Below, one piece after another: positions 2,315-42,832 of a DNA stretch of 64,000 nt. The stretch comes from Polytrichum commune. Its lineage: Eukaryota > Streptophyta > Polytrichopsida > Polytrichales > Polytrichaceae. Numbering within the stretch: position 1 is the first letter of the stretch; each line of letters starts with the position of its first letter. Made by a program: the position numbers and the translations under genes. Location: assembly GCA_950295325.1 (NCBI GenBank), contig OX485803.1:74477554-74541553 (forward strand). Direction: 5' to 3'. Under the pieces are notes generated by a model. The model had not been told where the DNA came from, searched no databases, and saw nothing but the letters and a program-made list of their open reading frames with translations.

Positions 2315-3623
2315 TCAAAGGGAATCATCTGCTTTATTCAGATCTTCCAATACACGATTCCTAATATCTTCAGGCAAGGCCGCGCGAGGCCCCTTCGAAG
2401 TATAGAATTGACCTAGAACTCTAAAGGCCCGCTCCAGAGCTAAATATGAATCCTGCACAAACCAATCTTGTTGATCACAAACCATTTCACAGCCCACTAA
2501 TACAACTTGTTCTTTTTAAGTGTGAGAACAACCGGCTAAAATACAGCAAGTCAAGCAACATCTGCAAATGAAAGTGTCGTCCATATATGGACTGTAAAAA
2601 TATTTCTTCATCAAGAACAAATCCTTTCCATTTCTTCCACAACTTCCCAGAATGACATGTTAAATCAACTTCAGCACACTTGTTCAAGAACAACCTAGTA
2701 AACGGCCTCAGCTTCATAAGCAGAATGATCTTATACTAGTTTCTTCCAATTTAACTCATTTAACAAACTCATTTGTAATAAATAAGAGTGATTACAAGAC
2801 TCATACAAGTAGCACTGATAACCAATGTGCTTAGAAACAAACCTGGTCACCATTCATTAACTGGTTTTCTAGCCTTAGAACGAAGGTAAACTCAAAACAA
2901 GATCACTGAGCCGGATACATATGCCAAGAACATGAATGGAGCAATTCATGAATAAACAGCGACGGGAGGGAGAAGCAAACTACAAACCTCGGTGGAAACG
3001 ATTTTGGAACCCCTCCAATCCTGCAGATACTCACGAATCGCCTCCTTGGCCGAGTCTGCATTTCTTCTAAATTTTGCATCGTTCGCAGTGTCCTCCTGAA
3101 ATGACTCCCGCAAGCTCTTGACAACCTCTCTAACACTCTTTACATATTTCTTAGGCAACTTCTTCCCTGACTTTGTCATCTGATCAGGATCAAGCAGTGA
3201 CAACACTCCATCTACAAATGTACCCCCTTCCTCCGCAACCTGCTTCACATCTCCCTCCTCGGCCATGGCAGGGCAGAGAGAACCTTGAAGTTGTCCAAGC
3301 AGAATGGAGGTGGCACACATTAGTGCAGGAGACAAACATTGACGACGACCAAATTTCATCTCAATATTGTCTTCTGCAGTACAAGAAAACGTTATAGGTT
3401 GTGTATTCAATGCACTTGTTCTACTACTTTCTCTTCTTCCTCCCCACAGCTTGGAGGCATGATCAAGAACCTCAAAATCAAAGGACCTCGTCGAGACTCT
3501 CCTGGAAGTACCCAATTGCTCGAACTGATGTAGATGGCAAACGGTACAGCTTGAGGAGGGTGTAGTAGAATTTCTTGAACACCACCAAGCTGATGAGGCC
3601 AACGGTGCCGAGCAATGCGCCAT
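2315..3623 (-). CDS. Psb27-like photosystem II assembly protein, chloroplast lumen (PSB27-H2/LPA19 type)
   Basis: Two coding exons, 3623-2988 and 2452-2315, joined in phase 0 across a 535-bp GT-AG intron (GAG|GTTTGT, TTGTGCAG|GA), give 257 aa. The first ~115 residues look like a bipartite plastid signal: a Ser/Thr/Arg-rich transit part, then a twin-arginine motif (GRRQCLS), a hydrophobic stretch and an AMA cleavage site before EEGDVKQ. The mature part has Psb27 features: KSVREVVKSLRES, AKEAIREYLQDWR, and after the intron YLALERAFRVLGQFY and a C-terminal PEDIRNRVLEDLNKA helix. Psb27 proteins bind CP43 on the lumenal side during PSII assembly and repair; the plant H2 paralogue is linked to processing of the D1 C-terminus. 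The fit to H2 rather than H1 is by memory of the family and is less certain than the Psb27 call. An AG at 3646-3645 suggests an intron in the 5' leader. Confidence 0.78.
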
Positions 3624-16437: not shown

Positions 16438-17255
16438 TGGCACTACACTAAATATGGTATTTAGTGTCACTATGGTAACTTTTCGTATGATGTATCGCAT
16501 GACTAAGTTGACAAATACTGTCATGGATGATGGATGAGTTCATTCATTGGCCAAAACCCTACCTCCACTTGTCAGCTACTTGTGATGAGATGTTGTCATG
16601 GATGTTTGAAATTTGGATGAAAATTAACTGGGTAAGTGACAGTAATTGCAACACTGTAAATCTATAATCTTACAAGGAATGACAAATAATGTTGGGTTAG
16701 TTTAGGGCAGGGGCTGTGGGCGTGGCAGGAGACCATGTCCCATGGCCCACGGATGAAGGGGGCGGGAGACGGCCAACCTTGGCATGGGGCTTGAAGGAGG
16801 GCAAACACTTACTACACTAAATATGATATTTAGTGTCACCAATTCCAATTGTCTTGCTCAATACTAATTGTAAACCCCGGTATAGTGTCACCAACACTAA
16901 ATGTTAACCCAACATCATTTGTCATTCCTTGTAAATGTAAGTTTTGTGGGGGATTATAGATTTACACTGTTGCATTTACTATCACTTACCAAGTGAGTTT
17001 TCATCCAATTCAATCATCCATGACAATATTTTGTTGCATAAATGTTGGGGTGTACAATATAGGAAGTCTCGTTTAAGGAAGAAGATAGAAGTGAAGAAAT
17101 TGATCTGCAAGGAGGGTTTTGGGCAATGGATGAAGTTAAAGCTATCATCCATCATCCATGACAATACTTGTACACTTATTCATAAGAACTGTCACTAGAA
17201 AAGTTACCATAGTGACATAAAATGCCATATGAAACTAAATATCACGTGTAGTGTA
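16438..17255. repeat. Foldback element of ~0.8 kb with long imperfect arms
   Basis: The left arm contains, in order, ACTAAATATGGTATTTAGTG, ACTATGGTAACTTTTC, TCATGGATGATGGATGA and ACAAGGAATGACAAATAATG. The right arm contains their reverse complements in reverse order (near 16900, 17025, 17150 and 17195), ending with ACTAAATATCACG. A short nested palindrome, ACTAAATATGATATTTAGTG, sits near 16815. No coding capacity. Related TATTTAGTGTCAC ends recur at 25408, 25690, 35627, 43926 and 44349. Confidence 0.7.
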
Positions 17256-18900: not shown

Positions 18901-19294
18901 AGAAGATAAGAAAATAAACTTCTAAACTCTAGGGATTTAGACAAAATTACTTATAGGTCTTGAAGAAATTAAGAGTTAGGAGCAACCACATATGATTTCA
19001 AAGATGAGAAGGCTTACCAAAATTAGATTAAACTCAAGAACTAGAATCTAACACTATATTCGTTAATCGGAGACTTTCGAAAGTCTCAAAATAAAATATG
19101 CCCATAGTTTGGGATGCCAATATTGTGGGCATACGGAATATTGGGAACATCAAGAACATGACGATTTAAAAATTTGCACGTAAAGAATATTCTCATTACT
19201 AAAAATAGAGAGTGTCACTTAAAATGAAAACGTGAGCTCCATGTGGAAAATAACAATCGACTTTAAAAAAACAAATGGTTTATGTCATTATAGA

Positions 19295-19353
19295 GTTTGG
19301 GGTGTGCATCCCATAAGTAAGGCTCTTATGAATTTGGATGGCACATCCCAAAC
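19295..19353. repeat. Short hairpin
   Basis: GTTTGGGGTGTGCATCC and GGATGGCACATCCCAAAC pair almost perfectly around a loop of about 25 nt. It lies about 100 bp beyond the 3' end of the leftward transposon-type pseudogene, where it could act in transcript ending or be a small MITE. Confidence 0.4.
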
Positions 19354-19452
19354 GTATATCACAATGGAGTGTGACAAGTCCATTAAGTCTATTAAAAACC
19401 AAGTCTACTAAGCGCCCATGTTTTTCGCCATGAACTCCCACCTATGTTATGT

Positions 19453-22400
19453 TTACACATCTCCGTCTTCCGCTTCATATCCATTCTCGACGTTATTTTC
19501 CGCAGCTGCAATACGTGCCAAGTTGTCTTTGGCAAAATCTATATGTTTTTGGGGGATGCTCATTGTTTCTGTTTTGGAACCTTTGCACGGCTTCCAAGCA
19601 CAAAGTATAGTATCCGTGTTTATCCAAACCGGTGTGTACGCTGAGTCCACTGTCCACTTAAAATTCTTTTTGGTGTCCCAACCTAAATAAGTGCGTAGCA
19701 CGTTCTGGTCTTTAGTACTTGGACGACAATATTCCACCTCAATCTGACGAAAGTTGGGGCTAGTTCGAACAAAATTGGGTGAAGACAATGCTTTCACCAA
19801 CCAAATTGGCTTGGGATGTTCCTCATCCCCTGCTCGTACAAGGACCAAATAACCTTCATGGCAATCAACACCTACACGAAACGACGGTGTCGGTCGATTG
19901 CGGGCAGGGCCAACGTAATGCTCGTCCATTGCGAACTCTTCACGAACGTCTCCATTGCTAAAAACCATGGTGTCGGACTCGACAACCGTCAAACGACTTT
20001 GTGGCCAAAATCCTTGTGTTAAAGTTGTACGGGTGTCACCACCAAGTGTCATTAGGGCCAAGCGAATGCGATCCCAATACGCAATCAAAGGTTCATGAGT
20101 ATCTCTAACACGTCTAGTGATGTCCTCCTCACACAACTCTTTCCAATATTCAATGAAACCGGATATGCCTTTGATGATTTCCGGCCCATTCCTCATGGGG
20201 TCGGGTTTGCAAGGCTTTGGATCTCCATCCGGGAGCAAACATTTCCCATCATTGTCTTGACGCCATACAAGTATACCATCATCCGGGCCCCAATTAGGAG
20301 ATGTGTAAAAAAACTTGAATTGCATGGCTGGGAGATCATCATCCCTTATATAGAATCGGAATTGTTGTACTTTGGTATGCCCCACCAAACGGTCCCCTCC
20401 CTTCAACATGTATGACTTGGTGAAGGCCTTGAAATCTGGTACTTCTTCAATCATGTGCGGAATTACTGGCATATGGTCCAAATCCATATACGATTTCATA
20501 AGAGGTATGGTTGGAAAATCTTCTTCATGCAACTTCATGCTCCACCGTCCGAATGATGCATCAATGTCGTCATGTGTATGTCCCACCATAAAAAACGACA
20601 CAAACACCTCCTTGAAGATTCATTTCGCCACGAGCAATGACCAAAAACAAAATACGTATCGACATTTGTTGTCTTTCGTGCAATTATCAAGTTGAACGTG
20701 AAGAGTTGGAGTCAATGGTTTTGCACAAATAGGTTCTCCCAGTGGTTCTAGCAATGACGACATACAAACCTCCTTCCCCGCAAGCACTGCTTCGTAAAGG
20801 GATGTCGTTCCACAACCATCAAAAAGTGCACGTGATGAATGTAACGGTGGCTTCTCCAGATCGCGCAAGAGTTTTGCAAATGAACCCACTGTGTGGTTAG
20901 CATCACCAGGGTAAAAATCCAACCCATAATGGACATATTTTACGTCTCCATGGTCGTGGGCAATCATCCCTGCGAACAAAAACAAACTATGCTTGAACAA
21001 CAACAATAACAACGACAACTCCAAACGGAGGTATGAAATTGGACATTTGGCAAACACACCCAGTAAAATTTGAGAGAATTTGAATACATATTTGTGATTC
21101 AATACAAACCTGTGACAGATGCGGGCAACTTGAAGAGACCATCCGTGGCCTTTATTTTGCGTGCATAACAAGGGCATGCGGTCTTGGCGTGGTCCATTTT
21201 ATCATGGATGATTGTTAGAACCTCTGTAGGCCTCATTATGGATAAAGCACGGTTCTTGTAGTAATCTTGACGGTGAGCCTCTTGGTTGTTGACATGTTCA
21301 ATATATTTTGTTTGGTGTCTAGTGTGGGATTCGGTGCCTATGGGGTGGACGTCTCGAAGACCTTTGTATTTTTCACACGTCGTACACCTAGCGAATTTGT
21401 CCCCAGGTCTCTTCAAAATGTATTCGGCAAACTGTTGGTTTTTAATCACACTCAACTTGGACAAAGAAATGGGCCCACATCCCGCTATGCGACCCACTTC
21501 GTTGATGTCCGTTAATATGTTCTTCCATTTTGTACCCGTGGGCAACACCATTTGTACAACTTTCTCCCCTGACGACAATGTCCTCGTCTTGTGGGGCATT
21601 GCATCGGCTAATGGGACTATGATGGTGGAGAGTGTCGCGGAGGCTTGGAGTGTAGCCTCCCTAGGTTTCTTTGTGCCCGAATTGCCATGAAATCGAGAGC
21701 GGCGACCCAACAATGAATATTTTTGAAGCCTATAAAAGTCAGACTTTGACACGGCGTGGATGGTATACCACGCAGTACAACACACTTCCACATTCTTAAG
21801 TGTGACCACCTTATGCCCATGGGTGTCAATGTGGACATTTCTGTGGACCTTGAGTTTCTTTGCCGATCTCATACGGAAATCCGCAAGCCACATCTCTTGA
21901 CGTAGGGACTAATTTTCTCCCGCGGGAAAAATTGGCAACATTTCCTCTCGCAACAGTCCTTGGCGGACGCAAGATGGATAGATTCGTCTCCCAATATGCG
22001 ATCCCGTCGACGTTCCTTATCTCCACGAGGCACACGGTTAGAATCATATCTGTATAGGCCTTTGCGAGGACGTATTTTGGCCAACAAAGCTAATTGCGTT
22101 TGCTTATGGCGGCGCTCATGGTCCAACAAGCTTACTCTGTCATGGAGAACCCGACAAAGAGGCCATCGACACAAGGAAAATCTCCATGTCACCGGGACGT
22201 CAAGCGGAAGCAAAGAATTCAAGATGCACACACCCACATCATCGGGACCAAGGGGGTTGGCATCCACACAATCACGGGGATCGGAGTTTCTACATATGCC
22301 ATCTGCCACCGGGACACCAATATCGTTGAAAAGAACAACATCAAGGCCCACCCATTGCTCCATACCAAAACCGGCACATAACGGAATGTCATCATTGTTA

Positions 22401-22492
22401 TCATTGTCATCCCCGGAACGTATAGATTGTTCGTGCGCTTCAAATGATTCGTAGTAGGATGCATCCACAAACCCACCCATGGCATTTGCCAT
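19453..22492 (-). pseudogene. Broken transposon-type gene (DUF7869-like, RNase-H-fold transposase candidate)
   Basis: Three pieces read leftwards. Piece 1 (from an ATG at 22492 to about 21900) ends in a Cys cluster, CCERKCCQFFPREKIS. Piece 2 continues as SLRQEMWLADFRMR in another frame (21909-21106). After a GT-AG intron of 136 bp (21105-20970), piece 3 (20969-19453) has a LDNCTKDNKCRYVF block and then VGHTHDDIDASFGRW. A Cys-rich front, an LDNC..NK block and an HTHEDID-type block are hallmarks I associate with DUF7869 proteins of plant and animal transposon-like families. Two lesions are visible: a one-base frame change at about 21890-21910, and an in-frame TGA at 20622-20620 between LLVAK and IFKEVFVSFF. 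Reading frame and composition are otherwise preserved, so inactivation looks recent. The palindrome cluster at 23057-23868 lies just upstream. The family assignment is from memory. Confidence 0.6.
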
Positions 22493-23056
22493 GACTACCC
22501 GCCGATGGCGAAGATAGTTCACAGTCACCATCGGAATAGGAAGTTTTTGTGGACAACTCCAATGAACTATATCCAACGTGCATCGCCATCCAACCTAAAC
22601 AAACCACCAATAAATGACCAACACAACAACCACCGCAATGCATACAAAAGCGGATATAAGATATGCCTACATATATAGCTAAAAAATCACAACCAACTCT
22701 TGCCACACCGTTGCGGGACCTCACATATGAAGACGAACGTGCGTTCGACAACAGTCCCATGACATGCAAATCGTACACGGGACTCAGACGTCCCTGCACA
22801 ACGGAACCCCATTCCGATATATATTATCCGTGAAGGGCTTTGGGTCGAGTCGCTAATAAAACATCGGAAGGGTTGTCCACCACCAAAGGACAACATAAGC
22901 ACATATATTCACAAACGCGCGGACGAAAACATCAACCCAATATACAATAAAATCTAAATATGACATATTATAAGAGCATCTAAAATATATTTGCCACATT
23001 ATCCACATACAGTAAGCATCATATTTGAGGGGCGTGTATTTGATGGGCGAGTGTTT

Positions 23057-23868
23057 ACGAACGATCGTTCGTTAGCTACAGCCGAAATTGAGGGCTTATG
23101 TACACGAACGATCGTTCGTAAGTTCTAGCCGAAACTTAGGGGCGGATGCATACGACTGATCATATGTATGTTACAGCCGTGACATTGTTTGGCAAAAATG
23201 ATTGGACACGTCCGAATAGAGATATCTATAGCCACGTTACAGGGATACATGAAATCCAATATCCAGTGGAAAATGACAATCGACATCTATCACTAAAATA
23301 ATGATTGCATAGATACGAACGAGCGTTCGTATCTATCCTAAACATGGTGTAGTCCTCTACACATGCTTGCGTCAATAGGTCTGTTGGTGGATGCGTGGAC
23401 GGTGGACCGGTGGTATTTACGAACGTGCGTTCGTAAAATTGGAAAACCTAATTCTCAGTGGACACAAATGGTAGTGCGAAATACGAACGCCCGTTCGTAT
23501 TTAACTTTCATATTGTTAACGTGGCCAATGCAAGGAAGTGTATAAATTAAGGGATGTTTATGGATTCTTGAAAAATAATCCCAGTTGATATTTACGAACG
23601 TACGTTCATAAATATCCCATCATCAGATGTTCCGTTGGAGAAAACGGTTACACGGGAACTTATGCGCGTCTGGGTCTTGAAGGCAGATATACGAATGTAC
23701 GTTTGTATATCATCGACACAATTTTCGTGCCTAGTTCTGTCTATAAGTAACTCAATGTCGAGTACGGTTGTGATCAACTTACGAACCCACGTTCGTAAAC
23801 AACTCACATCACATGTATGTACCTCTTGTACATGTGCTACCAACTCACGTTTACGAACGTGCGTTCGT
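23057..23868. repeat. Palindrome cluster 1: ACGAACGNNCGTTCGT, about nine copies
   Basis: Perfect 16-mers start at 23057, 23104, 23315, 23419, 23483 and 23853. One- to three-mismatch copies start at 23594, 23691 and 23781, and a more decayed trace lies near 23149. Spacing is irregular (47 to about 210 bp). Many copies are extended by T/A to TTTACGAACG..CGTTCGTAAA. The sequence between copies is not repeated. The cluster covers the region upstream of the leftward DUF7869-like pseudogene. Confidence 0.85.
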
Positions 23869-25404
23869 AAACGTCTGGTATTTGCGGCGGTATATACGGG
23901 TATGTGCAGTCTGTAGTGGACCTGGGAGGTGTAAGGTTGGCGCACAAGAAAATGGTTTGAGCGCGTTCCAGTCAGGTCTGTGGAGCGCACACTTGGATGT
24001 GCCGCAGAAAAGAGCTCTTCTGTGGGGGGAAGAGCTTTAAATACCTTCCCCCCAATGGTTCAAAATCCCTTGGATGCTATTTAAAAAGCGGATTCTTGCC
24101 GCCTACTTTGACCTAACAATATGCCATTCCATCCATACGTAATATATAAATAGCATTATGTATGGAACATGTCTTGTGTGCACGCAACATATTGTAAATC
24201 TGTAAATCCGTCGCACACCTTAGTTGTTACCAAGGTCGCACGAAAATATGTCTATATGTCTATATGTCTATATTTATATGTGTATATATATATAATTTAT
24301 ATTATACTATTATATTGTTTTATATATGGGTTATTATATTATATATATATGGGTTGATGGGTTAACATTGAGTATTAAATTATTTGCGACTAAGGTGTGA
24401 AGTCCAAGTGAATTGATGAAGGTCTAAGTGATATATATATTTATACACACAATGAGGTAAGAGTGGCTAAGAACATATTGTGGAATCCCCTAAAATTGTA
24501 GGTATCATATGATTTACAAAAAAAAAATGCTTGTAATATGGTCACCAAGTGCATGAATACCAATAAAAAGTCGCTTAATCCATAATGGTTTGTGCTAGGT
24601 AGATTGAGGACATTTGGAACTTGAGGCTCACCAAACATTGGCCCATATTAATATGAATCATTGTTGCAATTTATCATTGGTGAAAATTAAAGTTTAATGC
24701 ACTAGTATTCGATCGTTAGTTCAAGTTGACACCTAATTAAATGACTTGACGTCCAATTGGAAATTCACTTTAGATCCACCATGGTGTGGAAATGGATAAC
24801 TAATTTGGAATGGTGCATACAATAGTATGCACTTACAATTATATATTTGTATTATTTGCAATAAGAAGTATGTGCATGACCATAGCTTAAACTGTTGATT
24901 TAAGTTGAAGTCTTAAACCATTCATGTTATAATAAGACTAAGTATGTATTGTGTGATCAAATTGCACTCAAAACTATTAAGGTGAAAGGGCTAGCATTTC
25001 AAAATTCATTCTTCACCCCCTAAACCAATGTTTTATATCAAAATGACAATTATTGGCATGAGTCTAGATTATTATAGTTGCTATGACCCAAATAAAGCAA
25101 TTTCCAATCGATCCAATATTGGTAGACCATTTTGACATGATGCGCATAGACCACAACATGGCCATATATAAGAAAGATTGGTAAGATAAAAAGATGTAGG
25201 ATTTAGGGTTTGGGGTTAGGGTATAGAGTTTGTGAAAGTTGTCTATGTGGTTTCCGGGCTTAGGGTTTAGATCGTTACTTCAATGCATTATATACACAAA
25301 CAATATCGACTCCTAAATAATCCATATCGCACTAACTTAATTTATGGGAAGCTCATACTATCAATTGATACTACTAGCAAAACATGCGACCACATGGCTA
25401 AAAT
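23869..25404. other. Spacer without genes; TATATGTC/TA microsatellite
   Basis: No palindrome copies and no coding region. A microsatellite of TATATGTC and TA units lies at about 24247-24350. A degenerate telomere-like stretch (TTTAGGGTTTGGGGTTAGGG) lies near 25200. Confidence 0.5.
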
Positions 25405-25740
25405 ACACTACACTAAATATGATATTTAGTGTTTGATTGTATAATATAGTGTTGTTACACTATCATGGTCAACACTAAATTTCAATTCTTTGATAATTAG
25501 TGTTGGACATATTAAATGGGCCATCACATTTCCTACTACCATGTCCTTTATGCTTTTATGATTGTTAATTGTTTTTTTCATATTAATTTCCTTACACAAA
25601 ATTTGTGCATGCGACATCCACATATTACCATTATAGTTGAAATTAAGTGTTTGAGTTCGCAATGAATAGTAGTTACTTTCATAGGGTTAGTGATATTTAG
25701 TGTACTATGCGTTTGTATTTAGAATATCTAACACTAAATA
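25405..25740. repeat. MITE-like element, TATTTAGTGT end family
   Basis: The left end, CACTACACTAAATATGATAT followed by TTAGTGT, and the right end, AACACTAAATATCATATTA, are inverted copies. Internal words (TAGTGTT, AACACTAAAT) repeat in both orientations. No coding capacity. Confidence 0.45.
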
Positions 25741-26089
25741 TCATATTAAGGGTGGTTCAAGCTAACACCTCATTAAATTAATAACATCGTATTGAAAATT
25801 GAATTTTCATCCACCTCTTGTGGAGATTCAGATAGCCCCTCTCCACAATTCAAATTGAGTCATTTATATATGTAATATTTATTTGAGGAACCATTGAACA
25901 ACTTTAAAGATGTCTCGTTCATGAAAACGACATTTGCATCTTGGGGATGGAATCTTCATCAAAAACCTACTAAATGACATGAATTGTTAAATACAAATTC
26001 TCTGAACATACTTTTCTAAAATATGTTTACAAGGAATCCTCCCATTTCCTATTTCATTTTTCTTGAACCCTCATCCCTCCATGTCCCCA

Positions 26090-26280
26090 TGCTATCCTGT
26101 CATCCCCATCCCCTCCCCTCCCCATCCCATCCCATCCTCATCCCCTCCCCATCCCATCCCATCCTCATCCCCTCCCCCTCCCCATTCCCTCCCCATTCCC
26201 CCCATCCCCATCCCCCTCCCCCTCCCCATTCCCTCCCCATTCCCCCCATCCCCATCCCCATCCCCCATCCCAGCCCTCGC
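26090..26280. repeat. C-rich tract of CCCCATCC units
   Basis: About 190 bp of CCCATCCC and CCTCCCCATT variants on the + strand, almost without G. It gives long Pro/Ser/His frames that are not genes. It lies about 1.6 kb before the start of the DGQHS gene and could be part of its promoter or a purely simple repeat. Confidence 0.75.
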
Positions 26281-26445
26281 CAGTGGCCGCCGCTTGGAAA
26301 CCCTAGCGGCGCCGGCTACCTCCCCGCGCCCATCTCTCTCCTCCTCATTTGTCATTTGGAGCAGAGGAGGAGAGGAGCTCTTAGGTGCGGCGAAGCCCTT
26401 GCCAATTTTAGAGCCTCATTGTGAATGTTGTTTTGTTGTGTTGTC

Positions 26446-26708
26446 AGAACCTTGAGAGTAGGAAAGCTTGAGAGGTTGAAAGTTATAGAAAGCTTGAGAG
26501 GTTTAGAGTTTTAGAAAGATTGAGAGGTTGAGAGTTTTAGAAAGGTTGAGAGCTTGAGAGTTTCTGAAAGGTTGAGAGCTTGAGAGTTTCTGAAAGGTTG
26601 AGAGCTTGAGAGTTTCTGAAAGGTTGAGAGCTTGAGAGTTTTGGAAAGCTTGAGAGCTTGAGAGTAGGAAAGCTTGAGAGCTTGAGAGTTTCAGAAAGCT
26701 TGAGTTTT
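26446..26708 (+). repeat. 26-bp tandem repeat (GAGAGCTTGAGAGTTTCTGA core)
   Basis: A TTTCTGAAAGGTTGAGAGCT unit repeats every 26 bp at 26561, 26587 and 26613, with degenerate copies on both sides. The purine-rich strand is +. It directly precedes a stretch (26700-26926) that may be the leader of the downstream gene. Confidence 0.75.
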
Positions 26709-26927
26709 CTGAAGCTTGTGAGTTGTGTACATCAGGGTTTGTGTAGGATTTGCATATAAGTTGTGAAGGCTTGAGAGTGTGAGAAAGGAGTGAGGGTAGA
26801 AGAAATTGCAATTGAATTTGCAATTGAAAGCGAATTCAGCGCTTTTGAAAGACAATTTGGTGTGCATTTGTGAGGATTTCTGGATTTCTCAGTAGGAGGC
26901 AGGAGGTTTTGTGTGCAACAATTCAAT
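26709..26927 (+). other. Possible 5' leader exon of the palindrome-associated gene
   Basis: A purine-rich, CT-poor stretch ending in CAACAATTCAAT|GTGAGTAC, a good donor. The next good acceptor in front of a coding start is CTCTGCAG|ATG at 27867. If joined, a ~940-bp leader intron would hold all eight copies of palindrome cluster 2. Only splice signals support this. Confidence 0.35.
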
Positions 26928-27177
26928 GTGAGTACATGTTTCCTTTACAAATCACTCCTTCACAATCTGAAATTGTTGTTTGATGAATTCATTGTGATTT
27001 GTTTTATGCATTATGAGGTATGGCATGTTTTGTATGAAATAACACTTTCCTCTTCATTCTGAATTATCAATCACTGACTCGCAATTTTGTTCTGATTCCA
27101 TTTTTCACTTGTGTTTCATCATTCTGATCACGAGTTGCAGGATCATGAACAATGCAAGATCGCAACATTCATACCAA

Positions 27178-27240
27178 CATATATATGTATATGTACATAT
27201 ACATATACATATATGTACGGATACATGTATATAAATAAAT
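27178..27240. repeat. TA/CATA microsatellite
   Basis: ATATGTACATATACATATAC variants over about 60 bp, itself partly palindromic. Noncoding. Confidence 0.6.
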
Positions 27241-27272
27241 ATACCATTTTCTAATCCCAGATGACCACATTT

Positions 27273-27834
27273 ACGAACGTTCGTTCGTAAATGTGGCGTG
27301 AATACACCCCTTACCCCACAAACATATACGAACGTGCATTTGTAAATACGCACCTCACCCTCCATTTTTACGAACGCACGTTCGTATATTCGTCTATACC
27401 CTGTACATCAGGCAAATCCTCAAATCAAATTACACATACAAAAATACGAACGAACGTTCGTAATCACAAACTATAACAATATACCAAACCCTTCATGGTA
27501 ATTGTCTGCATTCCCTAGTAGCATAATTTACGAACGCACGTTCGTAAATAAGAACTAAAGTATTAATTCACCTATTTAGAAGATACTCATGGAAATTATA
27601 ACAATCCTCGTGGAAATTAGATAACCCTGGACAACTCGTAGACTTGTTTAGAAACAATACGAACGCACGTTCGTAAATTTGTGCCAAATATACCTTAGCA
27701 ACCACATTCTTTACGAACGATCGTTCGTAAATGAAATCAGCGAAGACATCATTAAAACTCCTCACGGGAATCCATAGCCAGCGTTCATTGATTAGTATAT
27801 ACGATTTGCTTGTCAATTACGAACGCTCGTTCGT
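27273..27834. repeat. Palindrome cluster 2: eight copies just upstream of a coding start
   Basis: Perfect 16-mers start at 27273, 27370, 27446, 27530, 27659, 27713 and 27819, and an imperfect copy at 27328. The centres are TT, CA, AA, CA, CA, AT and CT for the perfect ones, so the arms are fixed and the centre is free. Spacing is 42-129 bp. The last copy ends 33 bp before the ATG at 27868. Confidence 0.9.
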
Positions 27835-29172
27835 AAACACAATACTAAATGTTTATGTGCTCTGCAGATGGCTAGACCGAGCAGGAGCGCCATTGAGATG
27901 TTCGCAGTGCAGATAGATCAGCTACCAGAATCAGTGTCCGACCCCAACGGAAACAATAATTATGTCCCCAAGGAGGACTTCATTGGGGAATGGACGGCAC
28001 TGCCAGAGAAGACATCAGACGGTCTTTTCTGTCTTCGCTTTACCTACGAGTTGGAAACGACGCCGGACCAACCAGAGCAATGGGTGCAGATGAAGACTTG
28101 GGAAGTAGAATCAATTGAGGCACAAGGAGATTATGTGATTTTAGACATGAAAAACAAGAAGGATCACATTAACCTCTTGTTAGAGTACAGGAGACATAGT
28201 TTCTCCTACACATACGCAGAAAATAACGTAGTGGTTGATGCCAAACACTTCCTCAAGGACCTCTTCACGAAGTACGCCCTGAGCTCGTACTGGACAGCAA
28301 GGAAGTTGTCCGCGCTCTCATTGAATATCTCCAAGTACAATAGCGCGGTCGCCGAAGCCAACAAGAAGAAGAAAAGCCCACAAAAACCATCCACATCTGG
28401 GGCAGGAGGATCGAGAAGTGCACCCAGGCCGGTGCCTTCCGCGAGCAGGGTGACGGGGGGTCCCAGCCGACATTCCACGCCATCGAAGAGGTCCCGGGAC
28501 GAAATGGAGAGGTCTGGGGTAACAGAGGGCGCTGAGGTGAGCTCTCCTCCCGTGATGCCAACCCCTTTAAAGAAGGGTGAGAATCCAGATGCAGTAAAGG
28601 CAACGAAGATCCTACGAGACTTCAAGAATTACTCGAAGGATTGCTGGCCCATGGGGCGCCACTTCACGTTCAACGTGGACTGCTTCAAGTGCGAAAAGTC
28701 CCCCAACAAGTGGGTGGTAAGGTCTCGCGAGAGCGGTGGGGTGAAGTGGCAGATCAACAACCTCATGAATAACGTCAAGTGGGATAGGTAGACCGTCTGC
28801 GTCATGCCCAAAGGGCTGACATCCTGACCGACAGAGATGGATTGGCCGCGAATCCATAATAGAAAATTCTGGATTATAGATGGTCAGCACAGCTTGGAGG
28901 CATCGCAACAGATCCTCAAGGATGACAACTTCCAGCACGAGCTGAAGGCTGACCTGCGGTACTGGAAGGCGTTCTTGGTCTGGTCGGACGATTGGGACAA
29001 GCTGCGCAAGATTTCAACCTTCCTGAACTCCGGGAACAAAATCAAGGCGTTCGAGGCTTCGTGGGCGGCTAACATAGTGGCTGCGAGAGACATCTGGGTG
29101 GCACATGGATGCCCACCAAAGGAGAGGGAGAATGCCAAGAACCAGTCTCCCCAATGGAAGGTGAGTTTATAA

Positions 29173-29242
29173 ATGAACGTTCGTAAAGTATTGGATTCAC
29201 GAAAACATCAATTACAGACTTAATTTACGAACGTGCGTTCGT
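29173..29242. repeat. Palindrome copies inside intron 29161-29276
   Basis: A perfect copy starts at 29227 (centre TG); a shortened one, ATGAACGTTCGT, lies near 29173. They fill most of a 116-bp intron flanked by AAG|GTGAGT and TTGTGTAG|GC. Confidence 0.8.
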
Positions 29243-30624
29243 ATTATGTGCAACACTGACATCTTGTTTTGTGTAGGCATTTTGCGATGCTATGGTAGAC
29301 AAGTTTTCTTCCATTGATATGAAGTCCACCACCACCAAATCTGTGCTTGAGCATGAAGGGTGAGCTCAGACTGATCTGCTACAACAGGGACACATGGGAC
29401 TTGTGGACCCAGTTTTTTGATGCACACAGCTCGGGCGATTTGGTCAATCCCGACACGAAGGAGAAGTACAACATGGAAAAAACCGGTGAAGGGCCCCCAC
29501 TACTGAGGGAGTTCTTTAGACACCTCCAGGGATTGACGGAGTCAGAGCTGAAGAGGTGTGCGATTCATGTTCTTGGGAACACCGTGGGAAGAAACCTTCC
29601 CTATCCCAAGATCTTTTTGAAGAGGCCAAAGCACAAGCCCGGCACGTACTCTATCAAGGAGTGGTGTGACCACCGGAAGCTGAAGACTGCTGCCATGAGA
29701 GAATTGAGCGTACTCGTACCAGAGTACAAAATCTTTGAAGTCGACGGCGACATCAACTGGCCGCAATGGCAATTGTTAAAGGTTGACTGCAACATCAACG
29801 GAGCCTCCATGTGCAGTCTGGTCAAGGAGCACGCCTCGGTTTTGAAGTTGAAGGGGAATAAAATGACTAAGAAAACCAACACGGATCCCCATGAGGTAAT
29901 GTTGCACATAAAATTTTTGGAGAGGAAGAGGAACGCCACATTCGAAGGAGTGGCAAGGTTTTGCGTGATGACCTCCGGCGTGGAGAGGGTCACATTTTCC
30001 AAGTGGGACGGCACCATCAGCAGGGCCGAGGTGAGGGAGGATCGACGGGGTTGCCCATTTGCCCTGATCGATTTCAGGGGGATCCCGGGTGCGTCAAGGC
30101 AGGGGGGAAGGACATTCCCTTCTACAACCCCTTCATGGCCAAGTTTATGGAGTTCAAATCGCCGGCCATGAGGGAGCCACACGTTTGGCTGTGGATAGTC
30201 GAACAGGAGAAGTTGTCGGTCGTCACAGAGTTGTACGAGCAGAAGATCAAATTCGAGTACAGCATCTTCCACAGCACGTACGTGCCAGCGAAGACGGAGG
30301 GGATCGTGGCCATCAACGAGGCCAGGGGCAACAAGCAGGTGGGAGCGGTCAGCCTGATTTTCTTGACGTACAATGAGCTTAGGGATGGGCGACCGCCTAT
30401 CAAGGCTAACAACACGTTCAAGAAAATCTACAGCATCCCGCATCCCCCTCCCAAGGATCTGCTGCAAGAGACCCTCTACACCGTCTTCCCCGCCCTGGAA
30501 CTCAGGATGGAGTTCTACGTCTCTGTATTGCAAAGTCTGGTTATAAGTGGAGAGACGGTGTACAACGTATGCGGAGGCTCCAAATTCATGTATGCGGCCA
30601 TGGTAAGTTGTCCAGGCTCCATTT

Positions 30625-30795
30625 ACGAACGCTCGTTCGTAAAGTTAACCAACTTCTCAATGTATTGTTTCACAGTCGTTGCACGTGACGCATTCATGTT
30701 TACAAACACTCGTTCGTAAACATAGCCCCCTTCGTAATGTCATGCTTGACAACTCATTGCACGCCACGCTTTGATGTTTACAAACGTGCGTTCGT
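30625..30795. repeat. Three palindrome copies inside intron 30603-30826
   Basis: A perfect copy starts at 30625 (centre CT). Two copies with ACAAACR in the left arm start at 30702 and 30780. The intron (ATG|GTAAGT to TTATCACAG|ATG) is 224 bp and phase 0. Confidence 0.8.
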
Positions 30796-32188
30796 ATTTT
30801 CTGACATTGTTGCTCTCTTATCACAGATGATGGGTCTCGTAGTCAACACATTCGTTGACGTTGTTGACAAAGAAGACTTCAAGATCCACCGTGCGAAGGC
30901 GTCGACGATGGACCTCAAAGACATCTCTATCCCCAGGATGGACTTCAGTATGCCCGCCGACGAGGGCATACCAGCCCACGATTCAAAGGACGACGAGCCC
31001 GCCCCCTCCGCCAACGTGGACGCCATTCTGCAATCCTTCGACATACCCCCGCTTCGGATCTTGCCGCCAACGACAGATCTTCCCGACCCTCAAGGGACGC
31101 CGGGTGGTTATACCGGGTCGTCCGCCGGGACAACCCTGGACATCCTCCCCGCGAGAACGTCTCTTGCGGAGCCTTTCGGAACGCCAGGCGGATGCTCGAC
31201 GTCACAGTCTCCAAGGCCCGCCGTGGTTCCGAAGATGGAAACTCTGGACATCCTCGACCAACGCTCGTATCCATCTTTGGACCTCTTCCGCAACACGAGG
31301 AGGAGGATGAAGAAGACTCCATACGTGGAGTTGCCGCCGGGAGCAATCATCGAGGTCTCGGACGAGGACGAGGGGGACATGGACATCATGGCCGAGCTTG
31401 GGGTGGACTACGACAAGAACAAGCAGGTGAAGGAGGAGGCGCTCACCGTCGTTGAGCTCAACGCCAAGCTTGAGGCGAAGATGAAGGAGGAGATGGTTGC
31501 AGCCCAGGAGGAGAGCGCCAAGCATCTGGCCAGGCTGCAAGAGCAGCTGAGGGATTCAGCGGCCAAAACCGACGCCATCTTCAAGATGCTCAGAAACATG
31601 CAGAGCTTCTATGCGCCGGTCCAGCAACTCTACCCCTTCCCCCCTGAAGGATACCCCTCACAGCCCCCACCTCCAGTCATGTACCAAGGAGGGCCTTCCC
31701 ACCAAACAGCGCCACACCCAACGCCGGCGGGAAGTCCATTGCCCCCGGAGGTGACGGCAACCACCTCAACCTCCCACGATGCAATCACGGCGGTGCTAAG
31801 GGAGGACGAAGATTTACGAACGCGCATTCGTGAATCTTCAGGTCCGGCAGTCCTCACCCCTCCCCCTTCAAGGGTAGGACTGCCCACAGACACTGACGTC
31901 GTCCCAAGGGTTGTAGATAGGCGGGGCGATGACATTGCGCAACACACTGACATGGTCATTGTGGAGGAAACGCAGGGGAGCCCCAATGACGCGGCAGGTC
32001 CACGTGGGATGGACGTGGAGAGCCCTGGCCAGGGACGACATCCATCCCCGCGCATGGAGGATGTCCCCATGGAGAGACTCGACCTTGGCGGGGACGACGA
32101 CGTGGAGCTCATCCAACAAACCCAGTCGTCTCAGGAGGAGCGTCCAACGGATGTCATGGAAGCAGAGGCTACTGCCCCAATGGATATT

Positions 32189-32320
32189 ACGAACGCGCGT
32201 TCGTTAATCAAAGAGGTAACTCATTTCTGAGAATGCCACATGTTTTACAAACGCGCGTTCGTTAATCAAAGAGGTAACTCATTTCTGAGAATGCCACATG
32301 TTTTACAAACGCGCGTTCGT
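32189..32320 (+). repeat. 58-bp tandem repeat, 2.3 copies, each starting with the palindrome
   Basis: Palindromes start at 32189, 32247 and 32305, exactly 58 bp apart. Between them TTAATCAAAGAGGTAACTCA, then TTTCTGAGAATGCCACATG, is repeated almost without change. The first unit contains the end of an open exon (ATCAAAGAG|GTAACT), so the duplication also copied a potential splice donor. Copies 2 and 3 have ACAAACG in the left arm. The duplication is young. Confidence 0.85.
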
Positions 32321-32612
32321 AACATCACTAACCCCGTGTTGTTTTCTTGGCGCTTCAACTCCATCGACATCACGTTGCCTGCGCGAGCCTTTTTCTACGT
32401 GATCCCTTAGGCCGATCAATTTTGTAGGACACTGTATTTTTTCCTTAGGAAACTGTGATAGATTATCACGCGAGACAATCGTACACATTCACCGAATTAA
32501 TATATGAGCAGACGATCTCTGCTCGCATCCCCTCAACTTATTGCATATTCTCGCATCTTGTGTTGTCTATGTTCTTCCGCGTCTTTGCATTCTTTGCTGA
32601 CTCACCTGTCTC

Positions 32613-32761
32613 ACGAACGCTCGTTCGTAAAAATGTGTGACCCCGTCTCGACCTCCTTCGCGAACGAGCGTTCGTATATGTATGTGCATCCGCGCTCACG
32701 AACGAGCGTTCGTAAATGATGCGCACTGCCCTGCAGCCTTCATTCACGAACGGTCGTTCGC
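32613..32761. repeat. Palindrome cluster 3: four copies before the HAD-type exon
   Basis: Perfect copies start at 32613 (centre CT) and 32698 (AG). One-mismatch copies start at 32660 (G for the first A) and 32746 (last base C). They lie within the presumed intron 32216-32897 or in the upstream region of the next gene. Confidence 0.8.
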
Positions 32762-32897
32762 AAGTTTGCCCTTGTGCACATTTGCCTTGCACCCTCCTTA
32801 CTTCCTCCTCTTTTCCCATAATGCATCGTCTTTATTTTCAACGCACAAATTTCATTATTGGATCATAGAATTAAACTAGTCGCGTTGTTCATCACAG

Positions 32898-33665
32898 GAC
32901 CCCCCGGAGATAGGTCGCAACCCCTCGACCAGTGGACCTCGAACCCGGAACAAACCTTTCCTCGTTTTTTACCTCAACGGGGTGTTGTGTCACACCCAAC
33001 ACATCCCCAGGGTTCCCACGCGTCCCTTCCGTCACCCCGACGAAAGGGACTATGACGGCGAGCTCGACACCCTCATAAACCGCAAGGCTGTCCGCGCCCG
33101 TCCTGGCCTGCGGGACTTCCTTCGCGAGGTGGTCGAGTTCGCCCACGTCGTTGTGTGGAGCTCCATGGTCATGGAGAACACGGAGCCCATCGTCGACTTC
33201 TTGTTCCGTGATCTCCCGAGCCCTTGCCTCGTCCTCGGCCAAGAGGAATGCGACGAGCTGTTCGACGAGAAGGGTCAACCGGTGCCCAAGTTTGGCGGTC
33301 GAGGCGGAGGACAACAATTCGTCAAGGTCCTCCGTTCAAGACTCTGGCAAGGCGTCCCCCGTCTGCAGGGGACGCCCCACGGGTGGTGGCCGACTCCTGA
33401 GAACACCGTACTCATCGACGACAGCCCCACCAAGAGCGTCTTGAACCCCCCGGGCAACGTCATCTTCCCGGACACTTGGACCGGCGATAGGCAAGACACA
33501 TTTTTGGTCGATAGGCTAGCCCCCTACCTTAGAAGGCTCGTGCTCCACGCCGGTAGCATCCCATTTTTTGTTAGGTCCAACCCCTTCGGCAATGCGGCGC
33601 TAAGCCCCTGCGATAATGTATATAAGAGCATCATGAGGCTCGCCAAACTCAATAAATTGATTTGA
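32898..33665 (+). CDS. FCP1/NIF-like HAD phosphatase domain, first catalytic Asp replaced
   Basis: After an acceptor (TTCATCACAG|GACC) a 255-codon frame runs to TGA. It has NKPFLVFYLNGVLCHT where FCP1-like proteins have a DxDG or, in a plant subgroup, DLNGVLC motif; here the first Asp is Tyr. Further on come RPGLRDFLREVVEFAHVVVW, the second HAD motif region with WSS, and NTVLIDDSPTKSVLNPPGN, which fits the conserved DDSP motif of NLI-interacting-factor/FCP1 phosphatases. With phase 0 at its start it could be the last exon of the gene beginning at 27868 (joined from 32215), or a separate gene with the four palindromes upstream. Loss of the nucleophile predicts no phosphatase activity. The frame itself is intact, so an inactive domain kept by selection is possible, as is recent decay. 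Confidence 0.6.
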   Translation, partial: DPPEIGRNPSTSGPRTRNKPFLVFYLNGVLCHTQHIPRVPTRPFRHPDERDYDGELDTLINRKAVRARPGLRDFLREVVEFAHVVVWSSMVMENTEPIVDFLFRDLPSPCLVLGQEECDELFDEKGQPVPKFGGRGGGQQFVKVLRSRLWQGVPRLQGTPHGWWPTPENTVLIDDSPTKSVLNPPGNVIFPDTWTGDRQDTFLVDRLAPYLRRLVLHAGSIPFFVRSNPFGNAALSPCDNVYKSIMRLAKLNKLI

Positions 33666-33776
33666 AATTCCTCCATGTCTTTGCTTGTTATCATGTGGTT
33701 CACATATCTAATGCTTGCTCCGTTTTTGGATGTCTTTTGTTGTTGTGATTGTTGTTGTTCTTGTTCTTGCCCATAG

Positions 33777-34747
33777 TTTGCCCCCATATGCGACGCCCCT
33801 GTAGTCGACGGCCCTTCCCGTCCCCTCTCGCCCCCTGCCTCCCCTTCCCAGGACGTCACGGACTTCCAAATGCCATCCCTCTACCAGTTCTCGGCGGTGG
33901 ACACGGCCTCGGCCGTGGATTACTCCCACGACGTCGGCGTCGTCAATAGCCCGCCCCCAGCACTTGTCCCCCGCGCGTACGCCCCGTCGCCCTCCCCCCT
34001 CTCCAAGGAGAAACGGACGCTCGTTCGTTTGGGACAGCTCTCGCCCTCGAGGGACGATGCCGTCGCTCGTCGTGGGCCCAGCCGGCGTCTCCGCATGGAA
34101 GGCCCCTGTTGCCACACCTCCCCCGCCGACTCCGTTCCTCCCCCCGCAACGTCCTCCGCGATCGTGGGCCCTGCCTTGACTCCCCCCCGCCATTCACCAA
34201 TGCAATAGTTCCATCGGCTCCGGATGCTCCCATCGACGCCCCCCTCGTGCCCGCCATCCCCGGCATGGACTTCCCCAAAGCCAAGGTGCCCTCCTCAACC
34301 CTAAACCCCTTTCCCGCTTTTTGCTTCCCTTGTCTTCCGTGTGTGTGCCGTTCTCTTTACGAGCGCCCATCCCAAACCGCCCTCATTATTTTCCACACTC
34401 CATTCTTATTCTTATCTTCCTATGACGTTGTTCCGCAGGTGGCTACCCGCTCTCTCGGTGCCCGGCCCTCCTTCACGTCTTCCTTGGATAGGCATGCCCT
34501 CAAGGCCGCATCATCCAAGTCCGATCGTTGTTTGGCCCTCCGCCGTAGCGCAAGACATTCCCTCTCGCAAACGCACTCGTATTCCACTCACAATACCACT
34601 CCGTACAATTCGGGAGCGCGTCCGGAAGTTTGGAATAACGACACGTATTCCGGGTCCGTCAACAAAAACGGTTATAGCCGCGGGCCTGAGATTTTCAAAG
34701 CCGTGGAGGCTGCCAAAAACAAAGCCAAGGCCGCGAAAAAAAATTAG
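33777..34747 (+). pseudogene. Pro/Ser-rich coding remnant downstream of the HAD domain
   Basis: A good acceptor (CTTGCCCATAG|TTT) opens a frame of FAPICDAPVVDG and MPSLYQFSAVDTASAVDY type that stops at 34206. In another frame PSAPDAPIDAPLVPAIPGMD leads to a donor (GCCAAG|GTGCCC at 34286), a 153-bp intron and a last exon 34439-34747 ending VEAAKNKAKAAKKN. The change of frame between the two halves means a missed intron or a frameshift. The high GC content resembles the HAD exon. An imperfect palindrome (ACGGACGCTCGTTCGT) lies at 34013 inside the open frame. Product unknown; it may be the tail of the same gene family. Confidence 0.35.
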
Positions 34748-35227
34748 TAGGACGGACTAGTGGGAATAGAAGCATACGAGTGGGACGGACTCCCTAAATG
34801 CGCTTAGGGGTAGAACATTTTAGTGGTGACTTTCTATTCTATTTCAAGTTACTCAAGACATTGATGGTATTTCCATTATAATTGTATTTCACTCCCATTG
34901 AATTCATTCAACTTCCAATCATTCTCCGCATCCTCCCTTCCATTCATAACGATCTCTCATTTCATACGCTACTATTTTCATGTATGCCTCACATTTTTGT
35001 TGACTTTGATTCCTTCATGTCTAATAATAGTATTCAAAATTATACATATGGGATTTTAGGTTGTCATTACTAGTCCAATTTTGAAGAGTGCATCCTTCAA
35101 TAGTCTCATAATCAACAAAAAGTCTCCAATTACCGAATATAATGTTATCTAACTGACCATCACAAAAAGAAATGAATGAAAACTTTGAGAGAGAATTGTT
35201 GAACTTATATGGAATGTTCTCAAAGAC

Positions 35228-41400: not shown

Positions 41401-42832
41401 AAAATCTTGCACAATAAGCACATATCTATCTCAATAATGTCCACCACCCCAACCACGAATGTGCAAATGGACATGACACTCATTGACATGGTATTTTTTT
41501 ACTACAACAAATTTTTGGAGGAAAAAAAAACACTACCTTTTTTTTTTATCAACTTCTCTAGTCAACTATTACTAGCAATCGGCTTCTAATTTGTTTAAAT
41601 AAAATAATAAACCATTACATATTGTTAGATGCAAGATCTATTTGTCCAATTTTTTTTTGAATTGTTTATTTTTTGTTTTTCCTAGAAGTCGATTGCTACT
41701 AGCAGTCAATTGCTCTTGGGTGACTACAACATTCGATTTTGAGCTGTCAACTAGTTTGTCAATTGCTAAACTCTATTTATTTTAAATAAAAAAGAATATC
41801 CAAGAAGTTTTTTGGACCATTTAGATCTTGTAGTTAACAAGAACTAACGGCTCATAATGTTATGGAATTTTGGATTTTTTTTCTTTTACAATCAACTGCA
41901 AAATGATAATCGACCAGACCGTTGACCAAGAGTTGACTGCACTAACTTACCCCTGAACAAACTACCAGATGTTAACCCAACATGACGTTTTCTGGTCCGG
42001 CATCACGTCACCATCGTAGAACATACTGTGATGTGATGTAACGGATGTGGACGTGGAATCCCTGACCCCAACATGAAGCCTCTATGTTGGTTTTGGGTGA
42101 TCTCCCCCATACAACTTTGAACCTTGACAACTTTGTCATACGGAATTCAATCAAGACATGGTTTGGTGCGTTGGAATCCGCTTTCCACTTGTAAAAGATA
42201 AGAAAATAAGTTAACTTAGTAAGCTATGCCCCTTACCTGAGCTCCTCCGCCCGGAGAGGATCACCGGGCCACACGTGCCGCACCATTTCCCGCAACAACT
42301 CGGGGCTCCGGGGAAACCCCACGTTCTCATGCCACGACGAGTGCGCCCCCAAGCTCGTGCCTTCGTGGTACCCTAGATACGTCCCCACCTGACCCGGGAT
42401 CCCACGCTTCTCCCTGACCTCCTTGCCGAAGATGCTCCTGGCGTTTGCTTGGTTCTTCTCAAAGAATTCGGGCGGCACCCCGTGGTTGATCACCTTGAAG
42501 AAACCCCAGGTCGCCGCAGCACGGGCCAACTGGCTGGAAGTGCTGATTCGATCTCCGTGCGTTGCCGCGAAATTCCGCTGCAGATCGATCACCGGGAAGC
42601 TGCCACAATCCTCGTCCACGAACTCATCATACGGGGTGTGGAATCTGAGCTCCCTCGGCAGCACAAAATCCTTCAGCGTGAGATCTGTCCCCGCCACAAA
42701 CGGCTGCGAGGTTGCAGCGAGCTCTGCTGGCTCAATGTTGATCAGGAGCTTCTCGTCAGATTTCTTATCGGATGGGCCCAGAGTTTCAGTGACGAGATCG
42801 CTGCGGTGCGCAGACATGGTCGTGAGTTTCAT
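38452..42832 (-). CDS. 2-oxoglutarate/Fe(II)-dependent dioxygenase, gibberellin-oxidase-like (DOXC class)
   Basis: Three exons, 42832-42237, 40375-40051 and 38706-38452, join in frame (phase 2, then phase 0) to give 391 aa. Borders: CTCAG|GTAAGG and TATAG|GCGTGAC; TTGCAG|GTATTA and ATATCAG|GCATGG. The N-terminal DIOX_N part has GSFPVIDL and ATWGFFKVINHGV. The core has the Fe(II) ligands His264-x-Asp266 in PPHTDAST and His319 in VQHRVALN, the 2-oxoglutarate Arg329-x-Ser331 (RIS), and NHYPVCQRP, close to the NYYPxCxxP block of gibberellin 20-oxidases. The family hydroxylates or oxidises small molecules such as gibberellins in the cytosol. I do not see the typical LPWKE motif of GA20ox, so substrate is open. 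All catalytic residues are present and exon phases agree, so it is probably functional. Both introns hold a MITE of the same family. Confidence 0.85.
39285..39580 (+). repeat. Dispersed repeat family R1, copy 2
   Basis: Shares landmarks with 5140-5470 and 43190-43500, in the same order: CCACTTCTC, GCAAGATGGTTAGCAAATTC, TTTTTGGAGCTCATATGA, GTGGTCATTAAATGATCAT, AACACATGTC and CTACATACCACTCAAAT. It lies in the second intron of the dioxygenase gene. Confidence 0.55.
39759..39983. repeat. MITE family F1, complete copy 1 (~225 bp)
   Basis: The left end, CTACATTGATTATCCCAATC, and the right end, CTAATTGGGATAATCGGTGT, are inverted. Internal TGGAGTTACGCAATGCTAT and CTGTGTAAATCTGAATAGTA continue the inversion. 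It lies in the second intron of the dioxygenase gene. Confidence 0.65.
40477..40699. repeat. MITE family F1, complete copy 2 (~223 bp)
   Basis: Same ends (AGTACATTGGTTATCCCAAT and CTAATTGGGATATGTGTAGT) and the same internal order as the copy at 39759, about 80 per cent alike by eye. It lies in the first intron of the dioxygenase gene. A broken third copy starts at 7205. Confidence 0.65.
41557..41716. repeat. Small inverted repeat in dioxygenase intron 1
   Basis: CTATTACTAGCAATCGGCTT and the reverse complement of AAGTCGATTGCTACTAGCAG pair; the arms are about 35 bp apart from an A/T-rich loop of about 90 bp. Probably a small foldback. Confidence 0.4.

Follow-up and report, generated by a model that had tools for sequence, protein, structure and literature searches.

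What does a short palindrome do about 31 times within 11 kb of a plant genome? The question is raised by a stretch of 64,000 nucleotides from Polytrichum commune (assembly GCA_950295325.1, contig OX485803.1, positions 74,477,554 to 74,541,553 of the forward strand), referred to here as the window, in which a preliminary description had noted the dyad ACGAACGNNCGTTCGT and offered two origins for it, either a dimeric DNA-binding protein that selects the sequence or a tiny palindromic element that inserted many times. We found that the dyads are real, strongly conserved, family-specific and organised, and that they are part of a DNA transposon carrying two divergent genes. From the comparisons described below, they are probably operator-like sites for a dimeric DNA-binding protein that is encoded by the element and has diverged together with them, and their role is probably family-specific activation or anti-silencing. 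Reading them as sites for a dimer is likely to be correct, and activation or anti-silencing is our best guess as to what the dimer would do.

The repeated unit is a conserved 22-bp dyad

With up to two mismatches allowed, the window contains 31 copies of the dyad, 18 of them exact, ten with one change and three with two, which agrees with the approximately 31 copies (18 perfect, about 13 changed) counted by hand before. The array covers 22733–34028; its start had been placed at 23057, and a one-change copy at 22733 moves it outwards. In shuffled sequence a mean of 0.05 copies is expected, and none of 100 dinucleotide shuffles attained 31. Beyond the array, only two matches with three mismatches each were detected in the window (40604 and 49401), and the claim that the dyad occurs nowhere else in it was thus upheld, as was the free variation of its two central bases. 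A tandem array had been denied with reason, as only 3 of the 465 pairings among window sites have 20-bp flanks that are at least 75% similar. Three dyads at 32189–32305 are spaced by 58 bp.

A scan of the 407.8-Mb genome, proposed earlier as a means of finding clusters around homologues of the two genes, yielded 5602 exact 16-bp dyads compared with four for a reversed control. Among the hundred matches listed, the dyads occur in multi-kilobase clusters, and these clusters are located within transposon copies. The 16 bp initially described are a genuine core of a longer site. The complete site measures 22 bp, TTTACGAACG-NN-CGTTCGTAAA, and consists of two inverted 10-bp half-sites; at the element loci, each position of the TTT and AAA extensions is retained in 84–95% of 140 exact copies. 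When spacings of 0–12 bp were examined at the same loci, the arms were separated by exactly 2 bp in all 140 pairs.

Aligned copies of the element, which allowed 209 comparisons covering 80 distinct sites, are 96.7% identical in the arms, 92.3% in TTT/AAA, 82.8% in the centre and 76.6% in the flanks, and the partner site was exact in 158 of the 209 comparisons. Non-coding CpG dinucleotides are conserved to 93.2% in sites, 71.0% within 200 bp of them and 75.4% elsewhere, and non-coding A/T bases to 95.0%, 82.4% and 87.8%, respectively, where the mask that defined non-coding sequence was made with an out-of-frame exon-3 query. Decay of one- and two-change copies through CpG was considered and not adopted: CpG transitions make up 39 of 74 changes, close to the expectation from 8 of 14 positions, and we therefore do not claim strong decay by methylation.

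The array belongs to a transposon with two divergent genes

The preliminary description had recognised the array and two genes; it had missed that a single transposon encloses them and that dyads of other spelling occur in related families. The element (19050–35146) aligns wholly or partly with five dyad-bearing stretches of the same contig, in pieces of 66–91% identity. Its features in the window are as follows.

19046–19049: left target-site duplication ATCT, read from the sequence and equal to the right copy
19050–35146: DNA transposon of 16.1 kb that contains the array and a pair of divergent genes; from alignment to same-contig stretches and from its ends and flanks as read
19050–19077, plus strand: left terminal inverted repeat AACACTATATTCGTTAATCGGAGACTTT, end read
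19456–22594, minus strand: transposase-like gene, DUF7869 (PF25273), broken; from Pfam, exon limits approximate
22733–23868: site cluster 1, ten dyads immediately 5′ of the transposase-like gene
27273–27834: site cluster 2, eight dyads, the last one 33 bp ahead of the right-hand ATG
27868–29160, plus strand: right-hand gene, exon 1, with two in-frame stops in the window copy; from codon-position bias and a homologue elsewhere
29161–29276, plus strand: intron 1, one dyad (29227) plus a match with three mismatches (29169)
29277–30602, plus strand: exon 2, with a frame change near 30.05 kb in the window copy
30603–30826, plus strand: intron 2, three dyads, at 30625, 30702 and 30780
30827–32170, plus strand: exon 3, with one dyad (31816); 3′ limit approximate
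32171–32897, plus strand: intron 3, with seven dyads (32189–32761); 5′ limit approximate
32898–33665, plus strand: exon 4, NLI-interacting-factor-like (FCP1/SCP-type) phosphatase domain; acceptor and stop read
34013–34028: outlying one-mismatch dyad match in the 3′ part of the element, without TTT/AAA
35119–35146, minus strand: right terminal inverted repeat, end read
35147–35150: right target-site duplication ATCT, read

Ten of the 31 window sites thus lie 5′ of the transposase-like gene and eight 5′ of the right-hand gene, while introns 1, 2 and 3 hold one, three and seven, respectively, and exon 3 and the 3′ part of the element one each. No dyad was found in the 3.2 kb that separate the two clusters. 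In four copies of the element, coding sequence accounts for 44.6% of the examined length and for 3 of 76 exact sites (binomial 1e-15, calculated on copies that are related and not independent).

The inverted-repeat ends start with AACACTATATTCG, and the right end reads AACATTATATTCG. A 26-bp end pattern with up to two mismatches was found 1341 + 1355 times genome-wide, with no match for the control. Eight elements were read at both ends. By eye, six of them have a clean 4-bp duplication that lies beyond a 2-bp tip, namely the window element (ATCT), copies A (CATA) and F (ATCA), and L026 (CTTC), L028 (AACT) and L029 (ATGG); the duplication is not clean in L025 and L027. L026 to L029 (C1:35049170, 55075570, 56295310 and 61543670) are derivatives of about 250 bp with the same ends. 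None of these four contains a dyad, nor does the 6.8-kb element L025.

The left gene matches DUF7869 with E values of 4.5e-16 and 3.5e-13 on two pieces in the window and of 1.6e-38 in another copy, and the scores of 59.4, 50 and 132.7 bits all exceed the curated cut-off of 26. Its product is probably the transposase; the window copy is interrupted by an in-frame stop at 20620–20622 and a frame change near 21.9 kb. The right-hand gene, whose first exon ends at a GTGAGT donor at 29161, has been selected as a protein, as changes between the window and copy B are strongly biased towards third codon positions through the plus-strand exons (205:46:28 in eight 150-bp bins from 27901). Other copies of the element retain long open exons. 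A genome search with exon 1, in which 129 of 876 candidates were scored, gave eleven copies tied at 607.4 bits with an open frame of 511 residues, and this equality suggests recent spread. Exon 4 matches PF03031 (E 2.3e-15; scores of 57.1 and 60 bits, above the curated cut-off of 21.8). FCP1-type enzymes carry a DxDx catalytic signature, the place of which reads DLNG in copy E and YLNG in the window; the phosphatase-like exon is possibly inactive. By eye, a DGQHS motif in exon 1 suggested ParB, the one pointer in that direction, and FGGSK at the C-terminus of exon 2 suggested a methyltransferase; neither resemblance is claimed.

Divergence between the window and copy B is uneven. The transposase exons differ mostly by 2–12% and the region at 33.6–34.5 kb by 5–8%, compared with 15–28%, chiefly at third positions, for exons 1 and 2 of the right-hand gene. 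The contrast between 19456–22200 and 27901–30600 suggests a mosaic in which the middle of the element may have been exchanged or replaced. A 9.5-kb relative (L009/L010, C1:639072–648558) has lost most of its coding sequence and kept 33 exact dyads, some of them spaced by 34 and 93 bp. Inverted repeats at 16811–16848 and 25407–25756 have ACTACACTAAATATGATATTTAGTGT in common; they are perhaps a miniature inverted-repeat transposable element that is nested within the transposon and recurs close by.

Related families carry the same geometry in other letters

When the genome was searched with the DUF7869 profile, 150 of 1491 candidates were scored, and equal scores marked out several groups of copies among them. 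Upstream DNA was read from one copy in each of two groups, chosen by open-frame length and copy number. The copy from the group with a 502-residue frame (L040, the second family) contains 17 copies of TGGGTCGNNCGACCCA, and that from the 692-residue group (L039, the third family) seven copies of ACGGGTGNNCACCCGT; the exact window dyad is absent from both stretches. Both sites extend to 22 bp, as GTTTGGGTCG-NN-CGACCCAAAC in the second family and CCCACGGGTG-NN-CACCCGTGGG in the third, and their 20-bp cores occur 9731 and 819 times genome-wide with no match for either control. The spacing is 2 bp in 38 of 38 pairs of the second family and in seven of the third, where the 6-bp cores form one extra pairing at spacing 0. 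The third family has longer clusters of sites elsewhere, an example being C1:34009133–34018001. In a further DUF7869 group with ends of the window-element type (L044), TTTACGGACG-CG-CGTCCGTAAA was seen by eye once in exact form, together with degenerate relatives.

The core of the L044 dyad, ACGGACG-NN-CGTCCGT, is a sister of the window dyad and differs from it by the identical letter change in each arm. Its 16-bp core is found 1394 times genome-wide compared with one control match, and by eye 36 of 50 sites listed are inside three elements with exact end pairs. Sites that combine a window arm with a sister arm number only 274 (145 and 129; controls 3 and 1) against the 5602 and 1394 symmetric ones; both arms thus change in concert. 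More than half of the mixed-arm matches listed have the centre CT and resemble one recurring site. The outlying match at 34013 shares this centre and is devoid of TTT/AAA, and for these reasons it is perhaps no true site and may stand outside the functional set.

The layout of the window element predicted a right-hand gene in the second family about 2.4 kb past the shared stretch, and it was found there. L042 encodes a homologue of exon 1, interrupted by one stop in this copy and 31% identical (E 9e-42), and carries 12 sites with up to two mismatches, nine of them exact, 28–872 bp ahead of the exon-1 ATG. L043 encodes a homologue of exon 2 (36% identity, E 2e-85), and the introns on either side of it, 1 and 2, contain four and three exact sites, respectively. 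In copy E and in the second family alike, intron 1 starts with GTGAGT and a dyad begins within its first nine bases. The promoter and intron positions of the sites therefore agree between two families with different letters, and in both the sites are linked to the same two genes. Another exon 2, predicted at C1:622970–624420 from sites at C1:616089–626109, was matched by the protein search at C1:623125–624387. This search scored 99 of 1213 candidates; by eye, 28 of its first 30 rows (all but rows 14 and 28) have a divergent DUF7869 row at most 16 kb away, a pairing that relies on the best 150 of 1491 DUF7869 candidates.

Some arrays are tandem, with a 78-bp unit in L040 and units of 96–404 bp in L013. 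From position 6878 of L013 onwards (C1:2252877–2257761) there is a further 22-bp dyad, GAGGCCTCGG-AT-CCGAGGCCTC, with 22 copies of the 16-bp core and a spacing of 2 bp in 23 of 23 pairs; an 18-bp core occurs 2217 times genome-wide and its control not at all. As no relatives of the window transposon proteins were found in the 10 kb read at L013 (C1:2246001–2256000), we do not count it as a proven family. A distant DUF7869-type relative, 43–49% identical to that of the window element, adjoins copy C (L014:3871–5504).

A protein of the element would read the sites

These properties point to a mechanism in which a dimeric protein encoded by the element would bind the two inverted 10-bp half-sites and ignore the 2-bp centre. 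Selection by such a protein, one of the two origins offered in the preliminary description, is favoured by the strict spacer, by arms that are kept while centre and flanks diverge, by the avoidance of exons and by a sister family in which both arms are altered identically. The sites maintained 5′ of both genes and within the introns of the second would serve the element's own genes. Their reader would be the product of this second gene, which combines an N-terminal half without recognised family and a phosphatase-like C-terminal exon. Once bound, the sites would probably activate these genes or hold them unsilenced while sparing relatives, as VANC does for VANDAL elements. Site and reader would change jointly, each family thereby acquiring its own spelling of the half-site; since the families keep the 2-bp gap, and the layout too where it was read, with respelled half-sites, such a joint change is probable. 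Between the window and the second family, the right-hand gene (31% identity in exon 1 and 36% in exon 2, with 53–56% over the 75 residues that close exon 1) has diverged further than the transposase pieces (49, 70 and 49%), which fits a specificity factor and is no proof of one.

Several points weigh against this explanation. The sites possibly anchor their own alignments and so inflate the measured conservation somewhat. All three coding sites are a single exon-3 site, exact in three of four copies and present in the window with one mismatch at 31816. Exons 1 and 2 of the right-hand gene had no notable match in Pfam, NCBIfam or PDB in single-sequence and profile searches, and their sole PHROGs family match had an E value of 2.8; as no library match is usable, the DNA-binding domain is one that we infer. 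In the single copy of the 692-residue family that was read, the 6.8 kb ahead of the transposase frame contain seven sites but yielded neither a right-hand gene nor an open frame longer than 142 residues. The reader could accordingly be the transposase or a protein supplied in trans, and a more diverged right-hand gene could also have been overlooked in this copy.

The last observation bears on the rival that fares best, in which the dyads are binding sites of the transposase for excision or movement, like the subterminal TnpA sites of En/Spm. Family-specific sites within a transposon would suit it, the transposase varies between families as well, and one site-bearing copy shows no second gene nearby. 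We nevertheless regard it as unlikely. The sites lie in the interior of the element, where the left end is about 3.7 kb away and the right end 2.4 kb (1.1 kb if the outlier at 34013 is counted), and some are intronic. Four dyad-free derivatives have the same ends, three of them with clean duplications, and L025 is dyad-free as well; the dyads thus seem not to be needed in cis for movement.

It is also improbable that a host factor binds the sites, either as an activator borrowed by the element or as a repressor that recognises the transposon. Placement in promoters and introns would be appropriate for an enhancer-like element, but the three distinct spellings and the symmetric one-letter variant, which number from hundreds to thousands of copies apiece, would call for a separate host protein in every case, and the target of a repressor ought to decay, whereas the sites are conserved. 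Very little speaks for RNA or DNA hairpins acting, for instance, in splicing or as a small-RNA trigger: the inverted repeats are perfect and some are intronic, yet sequence rather than pairing is kept (only one of 13 unique two-change copies carries a compensating pair), many sites lie 5′ of genes, and the arm sequence is common to thousands of copies while differing between families. Repeated insertion of tiny palindromic elements, the other origin proposed at the outset, or a satellite-like tandem array is scarcely credible despite the tandem units in L040 and L013 and the 58-bp spacing in the window, because window sites so rarely share flanks and because the sites occupy equal gene positions in two families of different letters.

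Comparison with known systems

The operator-like reading has its closest parallel in VANDAL elements of Arabidopsis, which possess a Mutator-type (MULE) transposase. No MULE domain was found by Pfam in the element pieces searched, which gave DUF7869 alone. According to PMC5735166, VANC21 binds the short motif YAGTATTAY, which is dense in the non-coding parts of VANDAL21, the targets of VANC6 have other motifs, and the motifs build up in introns and upstream regions through the formation of tandem repeats; in PMC10398659, the noncoding regions of VANDAL elements are described as targets of RNA-directed DNA methylation. The element described here likewise has a short motif that is dense in non-coding parts, upstream of genes and in introns, that varies between related families and whose copies are often in tandem repeats, and it would likewise have an accessory protein evolving with its targets. 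The VANC21 motif as given there comprises 9 bp in a single orientation, in contrast to a 22-bp two-fold dyad with a 2-bp centre that would be left unread. The moss element further differs in DUF7869, inverted ends, 4-bp target duplications and an accessory gene whose last exon is phosphatase-like. Exons 1 and 2 of the right-hand gene were matched by no family profile, VANC itself not being part of that comparison. By these lines of reasoning the system would resemble VANDAL/VANC in logic and not be a member of it.

CACTA (En/Spm) transposons have a 3-bp target duplication beside CACTA ends and repeated motifs, the TnpA sites, that are confined to subterminal positions. CACTA is contained in the ends of the window element too, and repeated binding-type motifs are present, but the duplication is of 4 bp and outside a 2-bp tip in six of eight elements, the sites are internal and intronic, and no CACTA transposase domain was found by Pfam in the pieces searched. 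Bacterial dimeric operators and ParB/parS share the inverted half-sites at fixed spacing; here, hundreds to thousands of copies occur in a plant genome, and the element proteins searched had no regulator or ParB match in Pfam, NCBIfam, PHROGs or PDB sequences. Our literature search, the scope of which excluded subscription papers and preprints, found nothing on DUF7869 and, among the titles and abstract openings listed, no description of such dyads.

Sequence-specific anti-silencing by transposons is already known from VANDAL in Arabidopsis. There is about an even chance that, inside one plant genome, a superfamily has radiated to give at least four distinct pairs of site and reader, perhaps five with GAGGCCTCGG, all of one geometry, through repeated changes in specificity of one dimeric fold that is absent from the libraries searched and independent of VANC. 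If so, nature would have provided a set of 22-bp eukaryotic operators that are orthogonal to one another, each with two 10-bp half-sites and an unread 2-bp gap, and with it a possible source of orthogonal DNA-binding modules. Should the moss elements be a second case, independent of VANDAL, with another transposase, another protein and a clean dimeric code, private regulatory addresses would seem to be a general route for transposons to escape host control while relatives are spared. The many-copy spellings within one genome make co-evolution of site and reader directly testable.

Other features of the window and genome

Outside the transposon, an open frame at 13023–14132 matches interferon-inducible GTPase (IIGP, PF05049; E 5.5e-24), here in the genome of a plant. 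Pieces of probable host genes are located at 2946–3623 (Psb27), 42233–42832 (dioxygenase N-terminal domain), 58771–59277 (Josephin) and 61199–62200 (FAD-dependent oxidoreductase). C1 carries TTTAGGG telomere repeats at both ends.

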